This document shows, in pieces, positions 22,072 to 43,140 of a DNA stretch of 64,000 nucleotides; the stretch's first letter is position 1; each line of letters opens with the position of its first letter. Below the pieces are notes generated by a model. The model was not told where the DNA came from. It saw nothing but the letters and a program-made list of their open reading frames with translations, and did no database searches. The position numbers and the translations under genes are program-made. The DNA is from Cladocopium goreaui (Eukaryota > Sar > Dinophyceae > Suessiales > Symbiodiniaceae). The DNA lies in contig CAMXCT020003372.1 of NCBI GenBank assembly GCA_947184155.2, forward strand, positions 1-64,000. The letters are read 5' to 3'.

Positions 22072-24536
22072 ATGCAGCCGCCCTGTGGTGTGGCCGAAGG
22101 CACATCTGATGCCAGGGTGTCAGACTTGAAGGAAGCCTTGGTGCAGAACGGCAAAGCACTGAAAGCGGCTTATCGGCAGAATGCCAAAAAACGGAAAAGG
22201 TTGCACTGTGCCGGCCTTGGAGTGGCAGCCCGCAAAACTGTGGTAGCTGTTTACATGCTGTCGAATTTTAACATGGATTTGACTCTCCGCATGGCTTGTG
22301 CTTTGACAACGATATCCTATGGCAGCAATGGGTACCCACGGCAGCTTTGATCCAAGAGATGTTGCTGACGACGCCGCTGCCAGATTTGACCGCTTTGGAT
22401 GACACAGCTTCACGCAAAGCGCAAGCCTTCCTGGCCGAAGCAGCCACGGAGCAGTGGGTCTATGACTGCAATACGAATCATTGTCAAGCACCTTCTGCGA
22501 TGGACACGTTTTTGAAGTGGGAGGAGGCCTTCCATGGCCAGAAGCTGGACATGGGTGTGCCAAACAAACGCATGGTCAATAAGTGGGTGCAGCGCTGGCG
22601 GGCTCGGTGGGGCGTCCGCCGGAAGGTGCTGAAGCAAGTTGTTAGCAGAGACCCCGCTGTACTGCGCGACAAGGCGCGGGCCAGCCAACTTACAACATTT
22701 TGTCTTCTTTTTTTGGGTTGGGTGGCTCCATTTTTGGGGCCGGAATGTGGCCCCAAAAATGGGTCCCCCTCATGTTTCATGCCTGTATAAGCCTACTTAA
22801 TCCCGGTTGGGCGGTCCCATTTTTGGGGCCAGAATCTGGCACCAAAAATAGGCCCCCATTTTCAATCAATTTCTTCCCTCGGAATTATATTTGGGGACCC
22901 TATATATAATAAGGCTTTGTCTTTCACTTCCTGCAACGCTCGAGCAGGTCATGACATTTTGGCGGACCATCTGCTATTGCCACAGCAGGTTCGCAGACAG
23001 GGAGCTACTTTTTATAAATCTGGATGAGACTAGCGTCGGCCACACCATGACACCGCCTATTGGATGTGTGGCAAAGCCACGGACAGCAGGTGGCAAACAG
23101 CCGCATGCACAGGTGCTGAAGCAACATGTTCGAGGTGCGTGGACTTACTTATGTCAGCGTGATTTGCAACTGCAAGCACATCCAAGGGAAGTTGCCTCAT
23201 TTTTTCATTGGCACCCAGGTGAAACTCACGAAGAAGCTCTTGCGCGCCCAGCGCGCTTTGCCACAAACTCGTTTGCGTGTTTTGCGGCAAAAGTCCGCTT
23301 GGACCTCTGCTGCCAACAGTGCCCAAATTCTCAAAGAGATCGCAGAAGTGCTGAAAAGTTTTCCGTCAAAACAAGGCGTTGTACTCCTTGATTGTGCGCC
23401 GGCACACCTGCCACGGCAGGTCATGGCAATGGCACGCAAGTGCAAGCTGCAGCTTGTATATATCCCAGCGCAGACAACGGATTACCTACAGCCGCTTGAT
23501 CTGCAAGGCTTCTCCCCTTTTAAATTTCAATATTTGAAAAGGAAGCACCAGGAGTTGCGCTCATATTCAGAGCATGGTTTAGTGCCTCCTCTGGCCTGGC
23601 TATGGCAGTGCATGCAAGCCCCTCACGAATTTTGGGCAGCTCGGCAATGGCAGAAAAGCTTCGATGCAGTGGGCTGCAATGGCCCAGCTCAAGTGCACAA
23701 AGCGCTTCAACACTTGATGGGTGCAGGGGTGCCTTGGCCTGGGCCTGACAGGCCGACACCCCAGCAGATGCAGTGCGTTTGGCCAGCGCGACGCCAAATG
23801 GCGCACGCGTATAAGGTTCTTTTTCTTTGATGCTGCCGCTCCGGGTGGATCCAACAGATTTGCAGACGTGGGTGGCACTATAGGACAAAGATTTTTTTCC
23901 ATAATACTATGGGGGTACATGGTACGGGAGTCCCTTTGGCATCACTTTTCAAGCCCCCAGTTTTGGGCCCCCACCGGCCATGTTTTGTCACACTATCTTC
24001 CAGTTGTGCAGTTTGAGAAAATTGGCATGGAAGCTGTCCAGACGGCATGGCTTCTGCAGCTAGCACGGCTCACAGCTCGTCGCAGAAAACACAATTTGAC
24101 TATATCTATAGCCATGTCGTCTGCCGCCGCTGGTATGGAAAGGGATGCTGCGGAAGGTGCTGCTGTAGCCCATGTGCCCGGGATGGATGACCGTATAGCT
24201 GCTTTGAAAGCTGAAAGGCAGGCCTTGAAACGCCAGCTGCAGCAAACCAGTCGAGAAGTCAAGGCCCAGGCTGGTTCAATTTCATCCTTGTGTGCCATGT
24301 TTGTGTTGGTGAAGCTGTATTGACATTCCATCGTGCCACTTGCACCTTCATCTTTCCCATCTCAGGTTTTTTTTGGTGAAGCTGCATTGCACCTGCATCG
24401 CACCACTTGTACTTTCAATCTTTTTGTTTCAGCTCTGCGCCGGGAGAAAAAACGACGCAGAGTCCTGAAATCGGCGGGCAAACTGAGCACCCAAGACCTC
24501 TCGTGGCTCCTGGCCTTCAAAATGACCCGTCAGCAG
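22072..24536 (+). pseudogene. Transposase remnant with introns and frame changes
   Basis: DDE transposases cut and rejoin DNA with three acidic residues. The N-terminal part (22072-22690, two frames) includes a basic helical stretch, KRMVNKWVQRWRARWGVRRK, like a helix-turn-helix. The first Asp is in LFINLDETSV (codon 23023). After a frame change near 23126-23146 comes VVLLDCAPAHLPRQV (Asp at 23390), then YIPAQTTDYLQPLDLQGFSP (Asp at 23498), giving 35 residues between the second and third Asp. A likely GT-AG intron (about 23812-24010) leads to FEKIGMEAVQTAWLLQLARL and an Ala-rich coiled segment. The end is KSAGKLSTQDLSWLLAFKMT before a stop at 24537. At least two frame breaks suggest it is inactive. 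Confidence 0.7.
22717..22865. repeat. Two hairpins in the transposase region
   Basis: A perfect 14-bp stem, CCATTTTTGGGGCC / GGCCCCAAAAATGG with a 7-nt loop (22728-22762), is followed about 85 bp later by a diverged copy (22828-22863). They sit in a stretch that interrupts the coding frame, so they may be an inserted element or part of an intron. Confidence 0.75.
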
Positions 24537-27957: not shown

Positions 27958-29043
27958 TTATGCCGTGTTTACATTTGTAAACAGGGAGATACAGGGAGAT
28001 ATGGGGAGATACAGGGAGAACTGGCCATGACAATCATGACAGGCCTGGTAGCACATACAACGGCACTTGCTCTCTCTCAAGGCCTTCAGAAAATGCTTCT
28101 TGGAGGAGGGCACTTGCACATGGAGCACCATCCAGTTCCTCCACAAGCCCTTTATGACTTCCTCCTTGTCGATTTGATGAAGTGCCAGTTGGACTAAATC
28201 CTCCTTGCCAACGCCCAATCTGCGTAAATGCTCATCCTTTAAACCTCCCAGAGCTCCCGGCGAGCAAATCTTCGTCTCGTAAATGCTTTGCAAGTTCAAG
28301 AACACTTGGGACAATGAGCGCTCGTCCTGAACATCAGTAGGATCATGTGAATGCACTTCGCGAATTTGCAGTCTCAAAAGTGCTGTGAATAGAACTTTTT
28401 CCCAATGGAGTCGAGTGCTGCTCCAGTCTATTGTCCTTTTGCCTGACAAAGCCTCCAGAATCTCTGGCCAAGACGACATGAGGCCAGCACTGTTGGTGGC
28501 GTTGGCCATGTGCCAAAGTAGACTCCACTGAAAAGCATCTTCTTCATCATCCAAACCATCAAACTTGGAATGGACGAGAGTTTGCCACTTCTCAGCAAAA
28601 GCTTCTTTCTGTGCTTCGGAAAGTGACTTGCTTCCGAGACTCTCCTGCAATGGTGCCACTGTCTCAGCCGCACGAGCCTGTGCAACTTGAAGATCACTGG
28701 AGCTTGTGTCCATGCAGCTGAACTCTGTAGCACAAAATGCAACAACCCAGGGCAAGATGTCGGGACATGGTTTGTTGATATCCTGAACATCTCCAAACGT
28801 TGCACCATGAGCTTTTAATGCCACGGCCCAAATCTTGTCTGTAAACACCGGTAAAGTGTATCCAGATGTCGCCGTCTGCTGATCTTCCGAGTCCACACGG
28901 TTTGCTGCGAAGGAGCATTGCATCTCATTGAGTCGATCAGCCTCGCCAAGCTTCGTTTCAGAATCCAAAAGACTGTGACAAAGGAAATTCATCCGTTCAT
29001 GACAAATCAAATCACAATGCCAATCTTTATGTAATCTGTTCAT
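27958..29043 (-). CDS. Large 3' exon of the unknown minus-strand gene
   Basis: A 361-residue open frame, long for this window. It contains ALVHSKFDGLDDEEDAFQWS-like acidic helices, MANATNSAGLMSSWPEILEA and a segment ALGGLKDEHLRRLGVGKEDL that has the spacing of a SAM-domain half, though weakly. The upstream exon (29380-29050) overlaps it in another frame for about 90 bp with no stop in either, so a frameshift or very short intron separates them. The last 30 residues run into CAGGGAGATA repeats and are probably not coding. Confidence 0.5.
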   Translation of the reverse strand: MNRLHKDWHCDLICHERMNFLCHSLLDSETKLGEADRLNEMQCSFAANRVDSEDQQTATSGYTLPVFTDKIWAVALKAHGATFGDVQDINKPCPDILPWVVAFCATEFSCMDTSSSDLQVAQARAAETVAPLQESLGSKSLSEAQKEAFAEKWQTLVHSKFDGLDDEEDAFQWSLLWHMANATNSAGLMSSWPEILEALSGKRTIDWSSTRLHWEKVLFTALLRLQIREVHSHDPTDVQDERSLSQVFLNLQSIYETKICSPGALGGLKDEHLRRLGVGKEDLVQLALHQIDKEEVIKGLWRNWMVLHVQVPSSKKHFLKALRESKCRCMCYQACHDCHGQFSLYLPISPCISLFTNVNTA

Positions 29044-35166: not shown

Positions 35167-35549
35167 TGTGTGTGTGAAATCCGCTATCACTCATGCGGAC
35201 CTGAGTTTCTGTTAACAAGTTGATTCAAACAATCCATCAGATGCAGGGGCGTGCAGCACCTTTGGCATACTGCACGCAACGAAGCTATTGCCATTGGTGG
35301 GAAGGGGAGACTGATCACCTCCCTGTACCTGCAGAAGTTGGTTTTGAACTGTTGAACAAGCTGTCCATTTTCATGCGTATATGTTGCTAATTTGAGATTA
35401 TCTCAGAAATCAGAGTTTCCCACTGCTTTCCCTACTCGACTGACCAGGATTTTGGACCTAGGAACCCTCAAGGCATGAACTACTTCATCACTATAAAGTT
35501 CCTCATTCGAGTAATGTTACTCAGTAACATGCTCCCATCAGCAGTGTGT
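35167..35549 (+). repeat. 5' LTR-like direct repeat
   Basis: It starts TGTGTGTGAAATCC and ends CAGCAGTGTGT. It contains ATGTTACtcaGTAACAT (35514-35530), a 7-bp stem with a 3-nt loop, and a TATA-like CTATAAAG. It is not bounded by the TG...CA of typical retroviral-type LTRs, though TG starts and a CA-G-rich end are present. Confidence 0.9.
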
Positions 35550-35893
35550 AACGGGCACAGTGTCACTGACTTGTGACTGCCGTCCGCGTGTTTGGTGACA
35601 CGCGTTGAATCGGTACCGGCCTTCCGGAAGAATAGTGGGGTACTGCAATACCTCGAAATCTGACGGGTATTAATTCCCGTGTGAATTGGCTTCAGGCCGA
35701 AATACATGAATCAAATACAATGCAAGATTTCACAAGATTTGGAATACGTCACAAGACAGCAGCAAGCCGTATGGCTGGAATTCTGAAAGACAGACACGAA
35801 TTTATTACATTCTACACGTTCGGGCAACTCAGATCTGTTCTGTCATCATTTAGTTCTTTTGTTTTTCACCTTTCCTCTGTATCTGTTTGAGCC
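35550..35893 (+). promoter_or_regulatory. Leader of the retroelement
   Basis: 344 bp without an ORF between the first repeat and ORF1. No tRNA primer-binding site (sequence starting TGG next to the repeat) is seen; the adjacent bases are AACGGGCACAG. The last 60 bp are pyrimidine-rich and end TTGAGCC just before the ATG, which would suit trans-splice acceptor use. Confidence 0.4.
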
Positions 35894-37606
35894 ATGTCGA
35901 AATCTGATATTCCAGCTGCAGTACCAAAGTCGCGATGTCCACCTAGTCCTACTCCTCCACCATCCTGGATCACACCTGTAAGTCGCCAAAGTCGTCCTAC
36001 AGTTCTTGAATTTACAGGACAATGCGGACAATATCGAATTGAAGGATCCAACATTCAAGAGACACGGGACTTACTCCAGACTGTTCTTCATACGGAGTCT
36101 CAACATGTTCAACATGTTCAACACATGCAGTTTCAACAAATGTTGACTTTGTCACAAAATATGATGTTCTCCAATGCTCTTGGCATTCAACCCAGCTCAT
36201 TTCGTGCACCAATTGTTGATCGTGATGATCGAATGGACGGATCGAACGTAGTTTCTGGATTGGGCTCTCATTCTGCACTGCCCTCAGACACTGTGGAACG
36301 TCAGAACCGTAGCTCTCAAGTTGCACTGCCCTTAGTCACTGATGATCGTCAAAATCAGATCACATCAAATGACCGAGTGGATCGAGTACGTCCCACTGTT
36401 ACAGCTGATTTACCAAGCGATGGAACGGTCCGGGTGCCTCTGACTTCTGAATCAGATCAACGGGATCGAGTTCGGGCATCAATGTTTATAGACCAGCCGT
36501 CAGTCTCAGTTGCTCCCATTCCACGTTGGGGATTGTTCGTACATTGTTTACATGACCATCATGGACACAAGAAGACCTTCACTAGTGATCGAAGACTACC
36601 CGGACCTAGACCAAAGGTTACGACTCGCATTGGACGGCCTCCTTTGACTGTTGAAATTATTGAATTTTTACACCCTCAGAGTGATCAGATTTCTTTTTGG
36701 ACGCTACCCACCACTGCCACATTTTGCTGTGATTGTATTACTTTAGAACAACCTGAGAAATCACCTTGGTGGTTCCTATATCAGTGCATGGGCCGCATTC
36801 GTGAAGAACTCTATCAAGATCCTTACCGTATCAAGAATGCATATGAAACTGGTGCACTCACTTTGGCAGTTGACAAATGGACGCCATCTTTGACATATTT
36901 TCAGCAACAATACTCTTTTCGAACTATTGACTCGATTGCGCTGTTAAAACAACAACTTATGACTGACCATATGCAGATCCTCAAAGATGAGTATTCCGCC
37001 AAGTTTGAAAAATTCTCCTCAATCATCCATTCCGCACTCGAAGTATTGATCTCTACTCTCCTTCTACATTCTGAAGTTTGGGCTTTCGTGGAGTGCATCG
37101 ACTTACTCTTTGATCACCAGAATCAGTCTCTTGTGGCCATTGTCGCTCGCTTGGAACCAGTCGTTTTTACACAAGAACCAGAAATTCCTGCTGCAGAATA
37201 CATATGTTACGCACACAACACGAATCCACAATCTGCTGCAGACAGTTTGTTCCATGGGTATATCAGACCATCATCCACTGACCCACAAGACGAAACATGG
37301 ATCCCGGCATTGACCTTTTTCTGTCGTGGCGTTACTGTGGCAAGACCTGTTATGACCAGATCAGTGATGCTCACAACCTTGAGAAAGGCACAGAAATATT
37401 CCAATTTTACCACTGATCGTCCTACATGTTTGCTCGGTATGTCTAAATCAAGACAACCACATGTGACCAACGTTCTCGGCGGTGTTATTGGAGAACATGC
37501 TTGTACACACTATTTTGACAGTGTACATGGACGTGACAAACGTTGGGGTCTTCGTTCTCATTTGAGTCCGCTTAGCCATTTAGCTTGTATCATCCCATCA
37601 TCATGA
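35894..37606 (+). CDS. Retroelement ORF1, unknown 570-aa protein
   Basis: The family is not recognised. The first 30 residues are Pro/Ser-rich (PPSPTPPPSWITP). At residues 72-80 is a small HVQHVQHMQ repeat. Residues 100-210 are polar, with repeated aspartate/arginine pairs. A folded part seems to start near 215 (PRWGLFVHCLHDHHGHKKTF), with two cysteines (FCCDC) near 280 and helices at 320-400. The C-terminal 150 residues include YICYAHNTNPQSAADSLFHG followed by YIRPSS, then FFCRG. The spacing of H...FHGYIRPS faintly recalls ADP-ribosyltransferase folds, but I would not assign it. It is the first ORF after the leader and lacks introns. Confidence 0.8.
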   Translation: MSKSDIPAAVPKSRCPPSPTPPPSWITPVSRQSRPTVLEFTGQCGQYRIEGSNIQETRDLLQTVLHTESQHVQHVQHMQFQQMLTLSQNMMFSNALGIQPSSFRAPIVDRDDRMDGSNVVSGLGSHSALPSDTVERQNRSSQVALPLVTDDRQNQITSNDRVDRVRPTVTADLPSDGTVRVPLTSESDQRDRVRASMFIDQPSVSVAPIPRWGLFVHCLHDHHGHKKTFTSDRRLPGPRPKVTTRIGRPPLTVEIIEFLHPQSDQISFWTLPTTATFCCDCITLEQPEKSPWWFLYQCMGRIREELYQDPYRIKNAYETGALTLAVDKWTPSLTYFQQQYSFRTIDSIALLKQQLMTDHMQILKDEYSAKFEKFSSIIHSALEVLISTLLLHSEVWAFVECIDLLFDHQNQSLVAIVARLEPVVFTQEPEIPAAEYICYAHNTNPQSAADSLFHGYIRPSSTDPQDETWIPALTFFCRGVTVARPVMTRSVMLTTLRKAQKYSNFTTDRPTCLLGMSKSRQPHVTNVLGGVIGEHACTHYFDSVHGRDKRWGLRSHLSPLSHLACIIPSS

Positions 37607-37990
37607 TCAATGATCATGGAAGTCACACAATTTTGTTGCGCTCCATAGATCAAAAGCTGCGCTCTGTTGTATCACTTTTTGAGCGGTTTCATTTATCAAG
37701 CCATCTCTTCATGAGTCATTTCAGATTTCGTCCAAGTCACCTTTTTGTGAGTTACAGTCACATACGTTTGATGTTTTTCCCAGTGATGATTTCGAAATCA
37801 AGAGTATTTACATTTTGTTAAGTCTAATTCAGCTGCTGTTTTTCTTGAGTACTACAATTTGACTTGCATCAAAATTGTCTGGTTCTGTTCAATTTTTTCA
37901 TTACTGTTTTCCATGATTGGTAGAATTCACAGTGGATCAAACCCGTCAGTAAGTCGTTCTTCAATCCGTTTGTGATCAGTATTTGGACAG
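37607..37990 (+). other. T-rich spacer between ORF1 and ORF2
   Basis: A small frame (37585-37821) overlaps the end of ORF1 but is rich in His/Ser/Phe, as expected from T-rich non-coding DNA. The spacer ends GATCAGTATTTGGACAG just before the ORF2 ATG, giving AG acceptors suitable for trans-splicing. Confidence 0.5.
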
Positions 37991-39079
37991 ATGCAGTCTC
38001 AACGCCGAGATTCTCGATCCAGATCTCGACATCGCAGTCGTGGACATCGTCGACACGAGTCTAAGGAATACCGTGATCGAAGACGACCGCTGTCCCGGAC
38101 CCAAGACCTCAGTCGTGCACGATCACCAGACTTACCTGATTCGTGGCAATCCACACGAACCCATTATGACACAAAGACGGAGTATGGATTGACTTTTCCA
38201 CGACATGTTGAGTCGACCAATTTTTCACGAAAGAACAATACAGCTGGCATTCCTATTTCTGATGTTAAGCTTGTCGACATTGTGTCCAACGGTCTTGAAA
38301 ATTGGGCTTTGCGCCTTGTTGCCAATGGTAGGTATGTCGCATGTGAGATGTTTCGAAATCGCCTTGAAGCCACATTTTCTACCATGCTTTTTCGTGAACT
38401 CTACCGACAAAAAGACAATGTTGATTTTGCGAAGCTCATCCAGCATTTGTCTTCAGAACCAGGTGATTCTCAAGATTGGAAATCCAAGCTTTCAGGAATT
38501 GAGGCGTTGATTCAACAGACTGTTGATTTGTTCAAGACTTTGGCACCCAAAGATTCCAATCAATCATTGTTAGAAGAACTGGAAAGAATGAAGAAAGAGA
38601 ACGCAGCTCTTCGTGCCAACCAAAGTCAAGTTCCTACTCAGGAAGGATCACAGACTCAGAACACTGAGGAACCACCAGGCGGAACACTCCCATCCATGTT
38701 TCGTCAATCAGCAACAGAGGAACTCAGACGCCAAAAAAGTCAGTCGATGCCAAGTATGCCGGGAGCCCAAGATGACCGTTCTCCACTCTCACAATATCGA
38801 CGTGGACAAAACGCACCCATCTTAGGCACACACACACCCAAACATACCATGACTGAACTCGACAAGTGGATCAAGAACAATGTTCCTAAGACGGAACAAG
38901 TCAATGTTGATGCCATGTTGAAGACCATTACTGACGAATACAATCAGTTTCCAGCCTCTGAAAGACCAAATTTAGAATCGATTCTTTCAGATTGGGGTCT
39001 CCCCAGTACAGTACTGGCCAAAACAAAGGCGGAATACAATTTGAAGGTTTTGGCCGCCGTTCAATTCCTTCGAAACTGA
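37991..39079 (+). CDS. Retroelement ORF2, SR-rich coiled-coil protein
   Basis: Residues 1-45 are almost all Arg, Ser and His in SR-type repeats (DSRSRSRHRSRGHRRH), a hallmark of RNA-binding or splicing-factor-like tails. A folded middle follows (90-180, DVKLVDIVSNGLENWALRLV). A short coiled coil lies at about 190-211 (NQSLLEELERMKKENAALRA). After a disordered Gln/Pro-rich linker comes a C-terminal helical part, TELDKWIKNNVPKTEQVNVD. No zinc knuckle is present. By position and composition it could play the nucleocapsid or chaperone role of a Gag protein; that is inference. ORF3 begins 75 nt later. Confidence 0.82.
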   Translation: MQSQRRDSRSRSRHRSRGHRRHESKEYRDRRRPLSRTQDLSRARSPDLPDSWQSTRTHYDTKTEYGLTFPRHVESTNFSRKNNTAGIPISDVKLVDIVSNGLENWALRLVANGRYVACEMFRNRLEATFSTMLFRELYRQKDNVDFAKLIQHLSSEPGDSQDWKSKLSGIEALIQQTVDLFKTLAPKDSNQSLLEELERMKKENAALRANQSQVPTQEGSQTQNTEEPPGGTLPSMFRQSATEELRRQKSQSMPSMPGAQDDRSPLSQYRRGQNAPILGTHTPKHTMTELDKWIKNNVPKTEQVNVDAMLKTITDEYNQFPASERPNLESILSDWGLPSTVLAKTKAEYNLKVLAAVQFLRN

Positions 39080-39154
39080 CATTTTGGATTACAAACCAGT
39101 GAAGTAAGTCCTCCATCATCATGGGGGCAGCCATTTCGCAAGTATTCCAAGCAT

Positions 39155-40018
39155 ATGCATGGTGCAGAGACAACGAAGCTTGCCTCACATTTTCAGTCGC
39201 TGTGGTTTGCTAGCATCCAATTCATGATTTACACTTTGCAATTTTCTCCAGCTTTACCATGGCATGTACAGGAACGGATCATGTGGATACTTAGTGTTTG
39301 GACCATTTTTGCTTACATCATTCGACCTTTTTCAGCCAAAAATCGACGTCTTCTGACTATTTTGCGGCAGTGCGAACTTCCAGAAATTTTGTCATGGACA
39401 TGGTGGAACAGGTCGAGCATCGTGTACTGTCGTTTACATTTTCGAAATGCTCAGTTTTACATTGGCTCCACTGAACAAACCATGTTTTCGAGAGAACAGA
39501 GTCGGTTACGAAAATACCGACAGTTAAAGAAAGACCAACTTGCTTACTACGAACCAGCTTTGAAGGCCTGGTCAGCACAACGCAACTATTTTCAATTTCT
39601 TGGTTTTCCTTTACTCCAGACTGACGTTGACAAGCTTCTTGCAGTTGAAACAGCATGCCAAAGGACTTTTCGCCCCATTTACAATTGGCCTTGGATCAAT
39701 CCTTTGATGAAACAACTTCGGATTGGTAAGCAACAATTCGGACCTTCAACTTTGAAGACCAGTACTCAAGGGATGAAATTTGTGAAACGATTTCGCAAAC
39801 GCAGTCTGCAAACTGCTCAATGCATTCTTAGTCGTCGGATTACGGATACTACAAGTTTGTACATTTTCCTGTATTCCCTTGGTTCTGACACGCATGACAA
39901 GTTCATTTGTTCTCGCATTCTACGTTCGAAGTTGTCAAATGTGCAGTTGATTTTCTTGTTATGGCGCTTGAGCCACCATATGTCGGAACCTTTTCGGACC
40001 AGAGCACAATCTCAATAG
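39155..40018 (+). CDS. Retroelement ORF3, GIY-YIG endonuclease
   Basis: GIY-YIG nucleases nick or cut DNA with one Tyr pair, an Arg, a Glu and an Asn. The domain is seen at residues 88-178: IVYCRLHFRNAQFYIGSTEQ has IVY for GIY (89-91) and an exact YIG (102-104) ten residues later. Arg at 113/117, Glu165 (LLAVETACQ) and Asn177 (RPIYNWP) occupy the canonical order. The N-terminus has two hydrophobic stretches (15-33, 41-57), unusual for a nuclease. The C-terminal 100 residues are basic. In Penelope-like elements this domain is fused to the RT; here it is a free ORF 51 nt upstream of it. The start codon is the first in-frame ATG; another start is possible. Confidence 0.82.
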   Translation: MHGAETTKLASHFQSLWFASIQFMIYTLQFSPALPWHVQERIMWILSVWTIFAYIIRPFSAKNRRLLTILRQCELPEILSWTWWNRSSIVYCRLHFRNAQFYIGSTEQTMFSREQSRLRKYRQLKKDQLAYYEPALKAWSAQRNYFQFLGFPLLQTDVDKLLAVETACQRTFRPIYNWPWINPLMKQLRIGKQQFGPSTLKTSTQGMKFVKRFRKRSLQTAQCILSRRITDTTSLYIFLYSLGSDTHDKFICSRILRSKLSNVQLIFLLWRLSHHMSEPFRTRAQSQ

Positions 40019-40069
40019 CGTTATATTTTCAAATTCTATGCTACTGAATCGCCACCAGCGAATATACCC

Positions 40070-41875
40070 ATGCAGTTACAGGTTTTGTCGGATACAATGG
40101 AACGTCGATTTCGACAATGGTTGCTGGGATTCACTCACCATCATCGCTGTAACTTTCCCATTTTTCACAAAGTTCGTGCACCGTTTGTGACAGTGAAAAA
40201 TCGAACTTTAGCTCAATATTTGTACAATTTTCGTTCCTTTCTAAAGTTGTGGACACCTCAGTTTCGCCCTCAGTGTGCTTGTCAGTTGTTTCCTCTTCAT
40301 GTTCAACGCAATCCACGGAAAACAGATCATATTTCATCCTTCGCCTCGGAATGTTTTCCACTGGATCCTATTCTGACTGCACATTTGGAAGATGAAGTTA
40401 CACCTACGTGGACACAATTTTTCCATCAAAACACCTTCCAATTTGAAAAATGGTTACGACGTTGGAAACTTCGCCGAGATCTGATCCAGTATTGGCAGGC
40501 TTTTCTACAAGACTGTTGGAATTTGCAACTTGATTCAGGTCAGTTGTACACTCAAAAACGTATTCGACAGGCTCGACAAAGGATCGACGGACTTATTGCT
40601 TCCCCAGCAGATCATTTTCCATCGTCTCTCACCTTACATTGTCCTGTCCAGTGGCACAATTTGCTGTGTAAGACATTTCAAGACACCTCTGTTTTTCATC
40701 TTTGTCATGTTGATTCAGCCACTATTCTGAAGAATATTCAGTATGATCTTCCTGGATGGATCACTGACAGATATCCTTGGGCTTTCGATTTTCATTTATC
40801 ATTAAGCAAGGCGTATATTCTTCCAAAACCTTCACGCTCGTTTATGAAAGCACGACCCATCGTTAATTACAGTCGATCTTGGCCAAAACAGATGGGTTAT
40901 ATTTTGTCTGTGGTGTTGCAAGATATTTTGAAAGTTGTTTATCCATCCTTACTTCGCTACAGTGATATCAACAAGGTGATGAACGAAATCAAATGCTTTT
41001 TCCAAATTGATCATGGTGCTGACCTTCTTCTCTTTCAGACTGATATTGCTGGTTTCTACAACCAAGTTGAACATGACCGCATTCTCGGATCTATTGAATT
41101 CGCCATTCATCAATATATTTTACAACATGGACAGACCTTCGATTCTGTACTTCAAGCACACGTATATCAACATGAACGCACCCTGCGAGTTTTTAGAGGT
41201 CAATGGCGACAACACACCAAGATGTATCGTGATATTCGCTTGGGCGACATTCTACCTATTTGTAGCTTTCTGTTGAATCACAGTTTTTTCACCGTCGGAA
41301 TGTCTACATTTTTACAAAAACGTGGTGCCAGCATGGGTAGTCAATGGGCACCTATTTTCTGTGCAGCTGTCGCACTCATGCGAGAACATACTTTTCTGTC
41401 CTGTTTTCGTCAATTTACCAACAATTCCACTTTTCATCATCGTTACGTTGACAATCGAGTGATGCTACTTCCTGTGGGACACTGGAACTCAGAAATGCAG
41501 TTATTTTGGAATCTTTCATTCTATTCACCTCCCATTCTACTTGAACAAGTTGAAGGATCTGAATTGTTAGGATACAACGCTGACGTGTTACAGCGTACAA
41601 CTACATATCTTCAACCTGTGGACAAAGCGTTTCGTTCAACAAGGAGTTCAAGTACGACTAAGGCACTCACGTCCGGAGCTCTGGCCAGAATTCGTCTCAT
41701 TTTGCAGAATACATGGCCCAGTTCTCTACAAATACCTCAAATTCAAGATTTTCTGTCCATTTGGTCTCGACGACAACGTGATGTATTGTCTTCTACTTTG
41801 AGAAGTCAGATTATCAAATTGGTACGCTCACGTCATCCACAACTTGATCCTGATTCTCTTTTTCACTTTGACTAG
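40070..41875 (+). CDS. Retroelement ORF4, reverse transcriptase with YVDN active site
   Basis: RNA-templated DNA polymerase. Motifs are LPKPSRSFMKARPIVNY (fingers, about 251-267), LFQTDIAGFYNQVEH (motif A, Asp325), KRGASMGSQWAPIFCAA (motif B, 417-433) and HHRYVDNRVML (motif C, 456-466), then LLGYNAD (motif D/E region). The G-x-x-MGS-x-x-(S/A)P form of motif B and the N-x-F segment before it (LNHSFFTVGMSTFLQ) are characteristic of Penelope-like and telomerase RTs. The second catalytic Asp of YxDD is Asn. About 240 N-terminal residues are basic and aromatic, possibly the RNA-binding part. The C-terminus is basic (LRSQIIKLVRSRHP). No nuclease, RNase H, protease or integrase domain is seen in this ORF. 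Confidence 0.88.
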   Translation: MQLQVLSDTMERRFRQWLLGFTHHHRCNFPIFHKVRAPFVTVKNRTLAQYLYNFRSFLKLWTPQFRPQCACQLFPLHVQRNPRKTDHISSFASECFPLDPILTAHLEDEVTPTWTQFFHQNTFQFEKWLRRWKLRRDLIQYWQAFLQDCWNLQLDSGQLYTQKRIRQARQRIDGLIASPADHFPSSLTLHCPVQWHNLLCKTFQDTSVFHLCHVDSATILKNIQYDLPGWITDRYPWAFDFHLSLSKAYILPKPSRSFMKARPIVNYSRSWPKQMGYILSVVLQDILKVVYPSLLRYSDINKVMNEIKCFFQIDHGADLLLFQTDIAGFYNQVEHDRILGSIEFAIHQYILQHGQTFDSVLQAHVYQHERTLRVFRGQWRQHTKMYRDIRLGDILPICSFLLNHSFFTVGMSTFLQKRGASMGSQWAPIFCAAVALMREHTFLSCFRQFTNNSTFHHRYVDNRVMLLPVGHWNSEMQLFWNLSFYSPPILLEQVEGSELLGYNADVLQRTTTYLQPVDKAFRSTRSSSTTKALTSGALARIRLILQNTWPSSLQIPQIQDFLSIWSRRQRDVLSSTLRSQIIKLVRSRHPQLDPDSLFHFD

Positions 41876-42163
41876 ATACCATGACAGGAAACGCAGACAA
41901 AACAGTTGCTGGATTTCGCATTGTCGTGTTTTGTCGTCATTCGCCATCACTTTCGTGAAGTCATTTGATGTTGGACATTTTCATCAATGGGCATTCTTTG
42001 ACGTTTTTCATCTGAAGTTCGATAACGTCACACTGTTTTCTTCTTTTTCATTTACCTTTTCAGTTATGTTCATGTTGTGTTTTTCTCAACTCAGTTGTTT
42101 TCATCATACTTTTGCCGATTGCGAATCTTGACTTTGACAGTTCGAATCACACGTTTTTGAATT
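41876..42163 (+). other. T-rich spacer between ORF4 and ORF5
   Basis: A 95-residue frame (41844-42131) overlaps the RT end but is dominated by Phe, Ser and His and is taken as non-coding. Pyrimidine tracts here could serve trans-splicing of ORF5. Confidence 0.45.
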
Positions 42164-42634
42164 TTGAAGAGTATATTTAAGCTCAAACTCAAACCAATCT
42201 ATCTCCTTCTTACGATGCCTTCGTTGCGTGAACTTAGCAATACTTTGGAACAGTGGTCCCTTCGGAAACGTCTCACCGATCGCTCCAGATCGCCAGTTCG
42301 GGAACCCTATATTTGTGATGGTCAGACACGTTCGAGTATCAAGAACGCTTCAGTTGAGTCTCGTTTCGAAAATGAAAGTGAACGATCCAGATCGCAAGTC
42401 CGGGAGCCCTATAGTTATGATGGTCAGACACGCTCGAGTATCAAGAACGTTTTGATCGAGCCACTTTCTGAAAATGCAAGTTCTACATCACATCGACGTC
42501 AAGATCGGTCTTTCACTGCAGCTGATGGTTCATCTGTTCAGTCCTCGTTCCCTTCAACCGATCGTTTTCAGAAGAGTCGCTCTCCAACGGGAACGCAGTC
42601 CGGACCCTTATTCTGTCCCAAGGAGACCATTTGA
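42164..42634 (+). CDS. Retroelement ORF5, small SR-repeat protein
   Basis: 156 residues, or 139 if the second Met (42215, MPSLRELSNTLEQWSLRKRL) is the true start, which the hydrophobic first 17 residues make likely. Two copies of a 22-residue block, RSRS(P/Q)VREPYxxDGQTRSS + IKN, lie 34 residues apart (40-61 and 74-95). The rest is Ser/Thr/Arg-rich and probably disordered. SR dipeptides link it to ORF2. A role in RNA binding or host splicing or phosphorylation is inferred only from composition. Confidence 0.75.
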   Translation: MKSIFKLKLKPIYLLLTMPSLRELSNTLEQWSLRKRLTDRSRSPVREPYICDGQTRSSIKNASVESRFENESERSRSQVREPYSYDGQTRSSIKNVLIEPLSENASSTSHRRQDRSFTAADGSSVQSSFPSTDRFQKSRSPTGTQSGPLFCPKETI

Positions 42635-42756
42635 TTTACAGTGAACCTTTCCCATATGTTGTACAAGAATTTCTAGGACATGTATATATTGCAAACTGAT
42701 ACTGCGATGAAAAACAGCGTTCACCAGCAGCTGCCTCCCCTGCCGGGGGGGGCCAT

Positions 42757-43140
42757 TGTGTGTGTGAAATCCGCTATCACTCATGCGGACCTGAGTTTCT
42801 GTTAACAAGTTGATTCAAACAATCCATCAGATGCAGGGGCGTGCAGCACCTTTGGCATACTGCACGCAACGAAGCTATTGCCATTGGTGGGAAGGGGAGA
42901 CTGATCACCTCCCTGTACCTGCAGAAATTTGGTTTTGAACTGTTGAACAAGCTGTCCATTTTCATGCGTATATGTTGCTAATTTGAGATTATCTCAGAAA
43001 TCAGAGTTTCCCACTGCTTTCCCTACTCGACTGACCAGGATTTTGGACCTAGGAACCCTCAAGGCATGAACTACTTCATCACTATAAAGTTCCTCATTCG
43101 AGTAATGTTACTCAGTAACATGCTCCCATCAGCAGTGTGT
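42757..43140 (+). repeat. 3' LTR-like direct repeat
   Basis: It is the second copy of the 35167-35549 repeat, with one local difference near 42926. Immediately upstream is GCCGGGGGGGGCCAT, a possible polypurine-like primer tract. Immediately downstream is GTGTTATTATG, host sequence. Confidence 0.9.

Follow-up and report, generated by a model that had tools for sequence, protein, structure and literature searches.

The locus analysed here raises the question of what kind of retroelement combines near-identical direct repeats resembling long terminal repeats (LTRs), a GIY-YIG nuclease and a Penelope-type reverse transcriptase (RT). It lies in the window, a stretch of 64,000 nucleotides (nt) of contig C3372 from a 1.166-Gb genome in 6202 contigs, and an initial annotation had read it as a young element of an undescribed class, with a free-standing nuclease encoded apart from the RT. 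Our analysis indicates that it is probably one recent copy of a branch of Penelope-like elements (PLEs) in a dinoflagellate, with several open reading frames (ORFs) and an endonuclease (EN) N-terminal to the RT. PLEs are mobile elements related to telomerase whose mode of movement is poorly known. The young age, the LTR-like repeats (hereafter pseudo-LTRs, pLTRs) and the Penelope-type (telomerase-like) RT of the earlier reading were upheld, as was the dinoflagellate host, which was accepted because the conserved core of the dinoflagellate spliced leader had 172 exact matches in the genome, compared to 0 for the reversed control. Every copy compared comes from this one assembly, and the match counts from genome searches are lower bounds.

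In the window, the ORFs containing the GIY-YIG and RT motifs start at 39155 and 40070 and, being 915 nt apart, share one frame. A genome search with the RT ORF gave at least 78 matches (73 of 1393 candidates scored), which included, beyond the window, 20 near-full-length copies of the same family with 98-100% identity (L002-L021; the same-family fragments L022 and C3753 were left out of this count) and further families of about 51, 48, 45, 41 and 33% identity. In 19 of these 20 copies GIY-YIG and RT were encoded in one continuous frame of 923-931 codons, the frame of L021 being broken like that of the window copy. The frame was also uninterrupted in copies of the 51, 48, 45 and 33% families, and the database protein P0001 (906 amino acids, aa) corresponded to the intact EN-RT at 100% identity (rounded) over its whole length. 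An undescribed class in which the GIY-YIG nuclease stands free and the RT is encoded apart is therefore scarcely credible, as its support from the two ORFs of the window copy, the split frames of L021 and L030 (51% family) and the short 617-codon frame that C5789 shares with L030 is set against a common frame that runs uninterrupted through the nuclease and the RT, in that order, in the intact copies of this and four other families.

The presence of both domains was confirmed in the intact relative P0001, in which structure comparison revealed an RT with the telomerase fold plus a GIY-YIG fold, and the order of domains in the intact protein is GIY-YIG, CxC linker and telomerase-like RT. The CxC motif was found at the aligned place in all 13 of the proteins P0001-P0013; it was absent from P0014, P0017 and P0023, proteins that are shorter or do not include the linker region, and the 33% family has CPGC in its place. 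Wherever it was covered, motif C of the RT read YVDN instead of YxDD. A point against the assignment is that the profile of the RT matched telomerase in the PDB only weakly (E 0.18).

Craig and colleagues are reported to have described, in 2021, N-terminal-EN PLEs (Chlamys and Naiad) with the GIY-YIG before the RT. As this fusion is already described for that group, the element is not a new class on those grounds. A CxC linker motif, pLTRs, a bias towards microsatellites and no hammerhead ribozyme are traits of N-terminal-EN PLEs, and the window element resembled Chlamys and Naiad in all of them, as well as in the single chain and the telomerase-like RT, no hammerhead having been found. Further marks of this group are an IFD insertion and, in the EN, a CCHH motif that Naiad has and Chlamys lacks. 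It appears to depart from them in the additional ORF1 and ORF2, the TGA between ORF2 and EN-RT, the YVDN motif C, the pLTR pseudoknot and the dinoflagellate host. The assignment to the N-terminal-EN PLEs is thus based on domain order, on the linker and on the fold, and not on a tree; protein searches returned no named PLE sequence. The ORF2-TGA-EN-RT arrangement, ORF1, YVDN, the (GT)n targeting and the pseudoknot look new.

Chlamys PLEs occur in the brown alga Ectocarpus, and PLEs were stated in 2025 to be new to TSAR (PMC12477816); the present element is likewise a PLE in a TSAR lineage, Ectocarpus being a stramenopile. Canonical Penelope/Poseidon elements (PAc, PMC11167929; Adineta vaga, PMC3846280) also have pLTRs, GIY-YIG plus telomerase-like RT and tandem copies, but differ in a hammerhead near the pLTR-ORF junction. 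Unlike the window element, PAc targets AT-rich DNA and has the EN in the canonical position, C-terminal to the RT (PMC11167929). No dinoflagellate PLE was recognized, by title or start of abstract, among the open-licence papers listed for Penelope together with dinoflagellates or Symbiodiniaceae.

A pseudoknotted RNA in the pLTRs

The pLTRs of all five families examined contained a covarying, pseudoknotted RNA of about 90 nt. It consists in order of GCAGGGG, a 7-bp hairpin (P2), CAACGAAG, a strand complementary to the hairpin loop (L2), a further hairpin (P4) and ACCTGC, so that a closing stem GCAGG/CCTGC encloses P2, the pseudoknot between L2 and the downstream strand, and P4. The pairing was assayed by swapping strands among nine distinct sequences. 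The pLTRs of the five families supplied five of them and pLTR-like stretches beside copies four, that of L017 being without P4. The 7-bp stem paired at 7/7 positions in the nine sequences, compared to a mean of 4.0 after swapping, and the helix between loop and downstream strand scored a mean of 10.1 vs 6.4 (none of 20,000 permutations as high). Weighing against the pseudoknot, three of the nine helices, that of the window included, scored only 7 owing to inner mismatches, and single swapped helices reached 12.

A covariance model of the closing stem, P2 and P4 (R1, with the pseudoknot left out) gave 36 matches in 31 sources from the window and 59 loci, some of them overlapping; 35 were at E<=6.1e-6, among them both pLTRs of the window, the nine seeds matching by construction. 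The 5' pLTR of L005 held only a decayed form (E 0.035). In the 13 distinct rows of the alignment, which was itself fitted to the structure, 93.7% of cells were paired, 13 of 18 pairs changed on both sides (shuffled mean 9.0) and the covariation was 0.614, whereas shuffling gave 0.159 and sliding at most 0.081. The closing stem says little, as it hardly varies. Single-sequence folds, a method that cannot show a pseudoknot, had z scores of -1.2 to -5.1. In Rfam, neither the window nor seven related loci had a match at gathering score; at E<=5 the window pLTRs gave nothing and the element four chance-level matches, none of them a hammerhead. Pattern matches in two IMG/VR contigs (L060 and L061; 22.6 and 11.8 bits) were taken as chance because P2 was not formed as elsewhere and the DNA was GC-rich.

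In canonical PLEs, hammerheads may trim tandem transcripts. The pLTR pseudoknot could likewise be a new self-cleaving ribozyme with that task instead of a protein-binding RNA, a doubtful but serious alternative, suggested by a short and compact fold, in which nested helices combine with a pseudoknot and the unpaired stretches (GG after the closing stem, and CAACGAAG) are near-invariant, and by its location in both pLTRs of a copy. On the other side, pseudoknots are also bound by retroelement proteins, as is the case for R2Tg (PMC12222951).

Stretches resembling pLTRs and bounded by (GT) tracts were also detected directly beside copies L005 (L034), L009 (L038), L016, L017 and L027. The pseudoknot RNA was present in four of them (L034, L038, L017 and L027), and the flank of L016 resembled that of L005. 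They are possibly solo pLTRs or non-autonomous derivatives.

ORF1, ORF2 and a conserved TGA

When one locus of each of five families was read (the window, L049, L050, L051 and L052), ORF1 and then ORF2 preceded EN-RT in all of them, and genome searches gave at least 84 matches for ORF1 and at least 114 for ORF2. The expected co-occurrence of the ORFs in the same order at other loci was therefore found, with flanking direct repeats in three other families, as judged where one copy gave both repeats. Some copies were damaged, with ORF1 split in L052 and ORF2 split in L050 and L051; the ORF2 of the L050 family is uninterrupted in L055 and L058.

Across the remaining four families, ORF1 was conserved in its C-terminal part. 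ORF1 had no Pfam match above cut-off, and its structure models were not usable (mean pLDDT 34, four sequences); a PARP-like or NADAR-like nature, weighed by eye only, was set aside. The N-terminus of ORF2 is RS-rich and is followed by a conserved core, a stretch resembling a coiled coil and a C-terminal module that is also conserved. Against the PDB, the profiles of ORF1 and ORF2 gave weak matches only (best E 0.35 and 0.095, respectively), mostly to coiled-coil stretches.

The stop codon of ORF2 was TGA at all 22 loci of the window family and at all 8 loci examined in the 51% family; each of the remaining four families had it in one or more copies. In all six families the EN-RT frame began at the very next codon, without spacer, and in five of them the base following TGA was C. 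A sense codon replaced the TGA in L053, resulting in a frame of 1321 codons, and ORF2 and EN were joined in one chain in P0015, from another record, which a splice in the gene model may explain. The upstream protein and the polymerase are thus in one frame with a single stop between them, a Gag-Pol-like arrangement conserved across families, and ORF2-EN-RT is probably made by Gag-Pol-like readthrough of the TGA, as judged from sequence. The gag and pol frames of Candida Tca2 are similarly parted by UGA (PMC2194720). Tca2 differs from the probable PLE of the window in being an LTR retrotransposon.

The first ATG downstream of the TGA lies 21 to 89 codons on, and the codons before it were constrained in the best pair of families (L051/L054, 61 codons, dN 0.45, dS 1.19, 49% identity). 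Several results count against readthrough: the constraint was weaker in L050/L054 (31 codons, dN 0.69, dS 1.10) and missing in L051/L052 (16 codons, dN 1.43, dS 0.80), dS was saturated before the ATG in most family pairs, and the stretch after the TGA showed no RNA structure shared between families (z -0.5, -2.0, 0.9, 1.0 and 0.3). The last of these would suit a separate translation of EN-RT by a non-AUG start, by re-initiation or from a trans-spliced mRNA, and mRNAs of dinoflagellates are indeed trans-spliced. Alternatively, the TGA could encode selenocysteine, as it does in some Naiads, but no SECIS (selenocysteine insertion sequence) match was found in Rfam. Both variants are unlikely, given the zero spacer, the same frame and TGA in six of six families, the C in five of them and the constrained codons of the best pair.

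Homologues of ORF2 with 27-35% identity were also observed in frames of 458, 442, 428 and 370 codons (C366, C6113, C678, C216, C308, C535 and others), on contigs that were not among the RT matches listed (73 of 1393 candidates scored). They are candidates for further lineages or for other element types carrying ORF2.

The (GT)n target and the copying of the repeats

All the readable junctions of the window family, 21 at the 3' side and 18 at the 5' side, were in (GT)n; outside the element, (GT)>=4 tracts make up 0.13% of the window. Where ends were readable, the pLTR of this family had a (GT) tract before its start and after its end. The outer 5' tract was longer than the internal tract of the same copy in 18/18 cases (10-16 vs 9, once 11) and the outer 3' tract in 16/16 (7-18 vs 6); all 21 readable outer 3' tracts were at least 7. 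The number of independent sites is one fewer at each end, as one 3' flank and one 5' flank are each shared by a pair of copies. In L018, a truncated 5' pLTR was joined to GT-rich DNA. Several copies adjoin other pLTR-like elements, which are a source of (GT) tracts. It weighs against a firm reading of insertion that a target-site duplication is undetectable, as insertion falls within the (GT) tracts.

Within-copy repeats with a (GT) tract at both ends were also found in L057/L050 (411 bp, 99.3%), L051 (368 bp, 98.1%) and L056/L052 (671 bp, 99.4%). Within the 51% family, 3' repeats matching the 5' repeat of L049 at 96-99% were found at six other loci; five of them end in (GT) tracts and one (L023) abuts another pLTR, and L027 had no matching 3' repeat. 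At two loci of the 45% family (L058 and L059), two copies adjoin each other and are separated by two complete pLTRs.

A hairpin preceded the 3' pLTR in five of five families and was singly unusual in only two of them (background fractions 0 of 791, 0.011, 0.11, 0.13 and 0.42), so that its conservation is suggestive. Since PAc begins copying at an AC-rich stem-loop within its RNA (PMC11167929), the hairpin-(UG) site is a candidate start here. L027 seemed to end at the hairpin without a pLTR, as after such an internal start, but its 3' flank held another pLTR-like element, so that it is at most a possible example.

In the 15 copies with both pLTRs, the mean number of differences was 1.27 for pLTRs of one copy and 2.43 for pLTRs of different copies (p 0.00015 in 20,000 permutations), which indicates that the two pLTRs of one copy are coupled; in 4 of the 15 the two were identical. 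At the same time, L001 and L003 have the same 5'/3' difference, affecting two neighbouring sites, and L002, L007 and L021 have another in common at one other site. Such differences, shared by separate insertions, argue against classical LTR copying, in which strand transfer would erase them. Template switching in target-primed copying, or recombination, fits both the coupling and the shared differences. An LTR retrotransposon with an acquired GIY-YIG, its repeats being true LTRs from strand transfer, would equally account for the closer pLTRs within copies, a point against target-primed copying, and for the two complete pLTRs between adjoining copies. It is nevertheless improbable, as the RT fold is telomerase-like, the differences recur (although recombination or misassembly may be another cause, and one flank is common to L003 and L015) and the Pfam scan of the ORFs gave no RNase H, integrase or protease match, the fold model of ORF1 being unusable; the earlier remark that domains of LTR retrotransposons are not recognisable thus holds for the ORFs scanned.

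One flank was shared and the other not in L003/L015 (3') and L010/L012 (5'), for which recombination or misassembly is possible, and inferences on single copies are weakened by it.

The best reading of these sequences is that the element family would use microsatellite-targeted, target-primed reverse transcription. The element RNA would be transcribed from the pLTR, and most ribosomes would stop at the TGA to give the RS-rich ORF2 protein, a putative RNA-binding Gag-like partner, while a minority would read through to ORF2-EN-RT. This protein would bind the element RNA, perhaps via the pLTR pseudoknot, and its GIY-YIG domain would cut a (GT)n/(CA)n microsatellite, whose freed (CA) end could pair with the (UG) tract of the RNA and prime reverse transcription; the other end would be closed by annealing at another (GT) tract. 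More tentatively, these elements may form a deep dinoflagellate lineage related to telomerase, with Gag-Pol-like readthrough, a YVDN RT and a pLTR pseudoknot acting as a ribozyme or as a telomerase-RNA-like dock for the RT, present also in short pLTR-like (GT)n elements. On the main reading, PLEs would be extended into dinoflagellates and the pLTR RNA would be a new family of structured RNA. With its very young copies, microsatellite target, defined RNA and upstream protein, the element family would make it possible to examine directly the choice of RNA and primer by a telomerase-like RT.

The window copy and its surroundings

The features of the window copy are collected in Table 1. The direct repeats of 383 and 384 nt proposed initially were confirmed, the pair matching as 215 nt at 100% and 179 nt at 98%. 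The five ORFs described on one strand kept their coordinates and plus strand, but not their number, as the ORF2, GIY-YIG and RT ORFs belong to one frame and the last ORF is doubtful. The corrected gene set is ORF1, then ORF2-TGA-EN-RT, plus the doubtful small ORF. Between RT and 3' pLTR there was no ORF of at least 120 codons in L050, L051 and L052 (L049 enters N there), and no counterpart of the small ORF was seen in other families. An in-frame stop interrupts its EN-RT, and the window copy is probably no longer autonomous.

Table 1. Features of the element copy in the window.
Feature	Position	Strand	Description
5' pLTR	35167..35549	+	383 nt; (GT) tract at start and end; boundaries from comparison with other copies
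Pseudoknotted RNA in 5' pLTR	35243..35332	+	Model R1 match, 81.5 bits; covariation; own-vs-swapped test
ORF1	35894..37606	+	570 aa; no known domain
ORF2	37991..39079	+	362 aa; TGA stop at 39077-39079
EN-RT frame	39080..41875	+	GIY-YIG, then telomerase-like RT; same frame as ORF2
EN-RT piece with GIY-YIG	39155..40018	+	Ended by in-frame stop; GIY-YIG corresponds to residues 86-180 of uninterrupted relative P0001
EN-RT piece with CxC linker and RT	40070..41875	+	Linker QCACQ; motif C RYVDNR
Small ORF	42164..42634	+	156 aa from TTG; 102-bp imperfect tandem duplication; gene status doubtful
GC-rich hairpin	42733..42753	+	Directly before (TG) tract of 3' pLTR
3' pLTR	42757..43140	+	384 nt; direct-repeat comparison
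Pseudoknotted RNA in 3' pLTR	42833..42922	+	Identical to copy in 5' pLTR; one of the seeds of model R1

By sequence, the unit is (GT)n-pLTR-ORF1-ORF2-TGA-GIY-YIG/CxC/telomerase-like RT-hairpin-(TG)n-pLTR-(GT)n, and the same order was kept in families with an RT identity as low as 33%.

Elsewhere in the window, an open frame of 361 aa on the minus strand (27958-29043) had no Pfam match at E<=0.01, and an ORF on the plus strand (23126-23830) matched the DDE_1 superfamily endonuclease (Pfam E 1.7e-8, above cut-off), corresponding to the remains of a DNA transposon.

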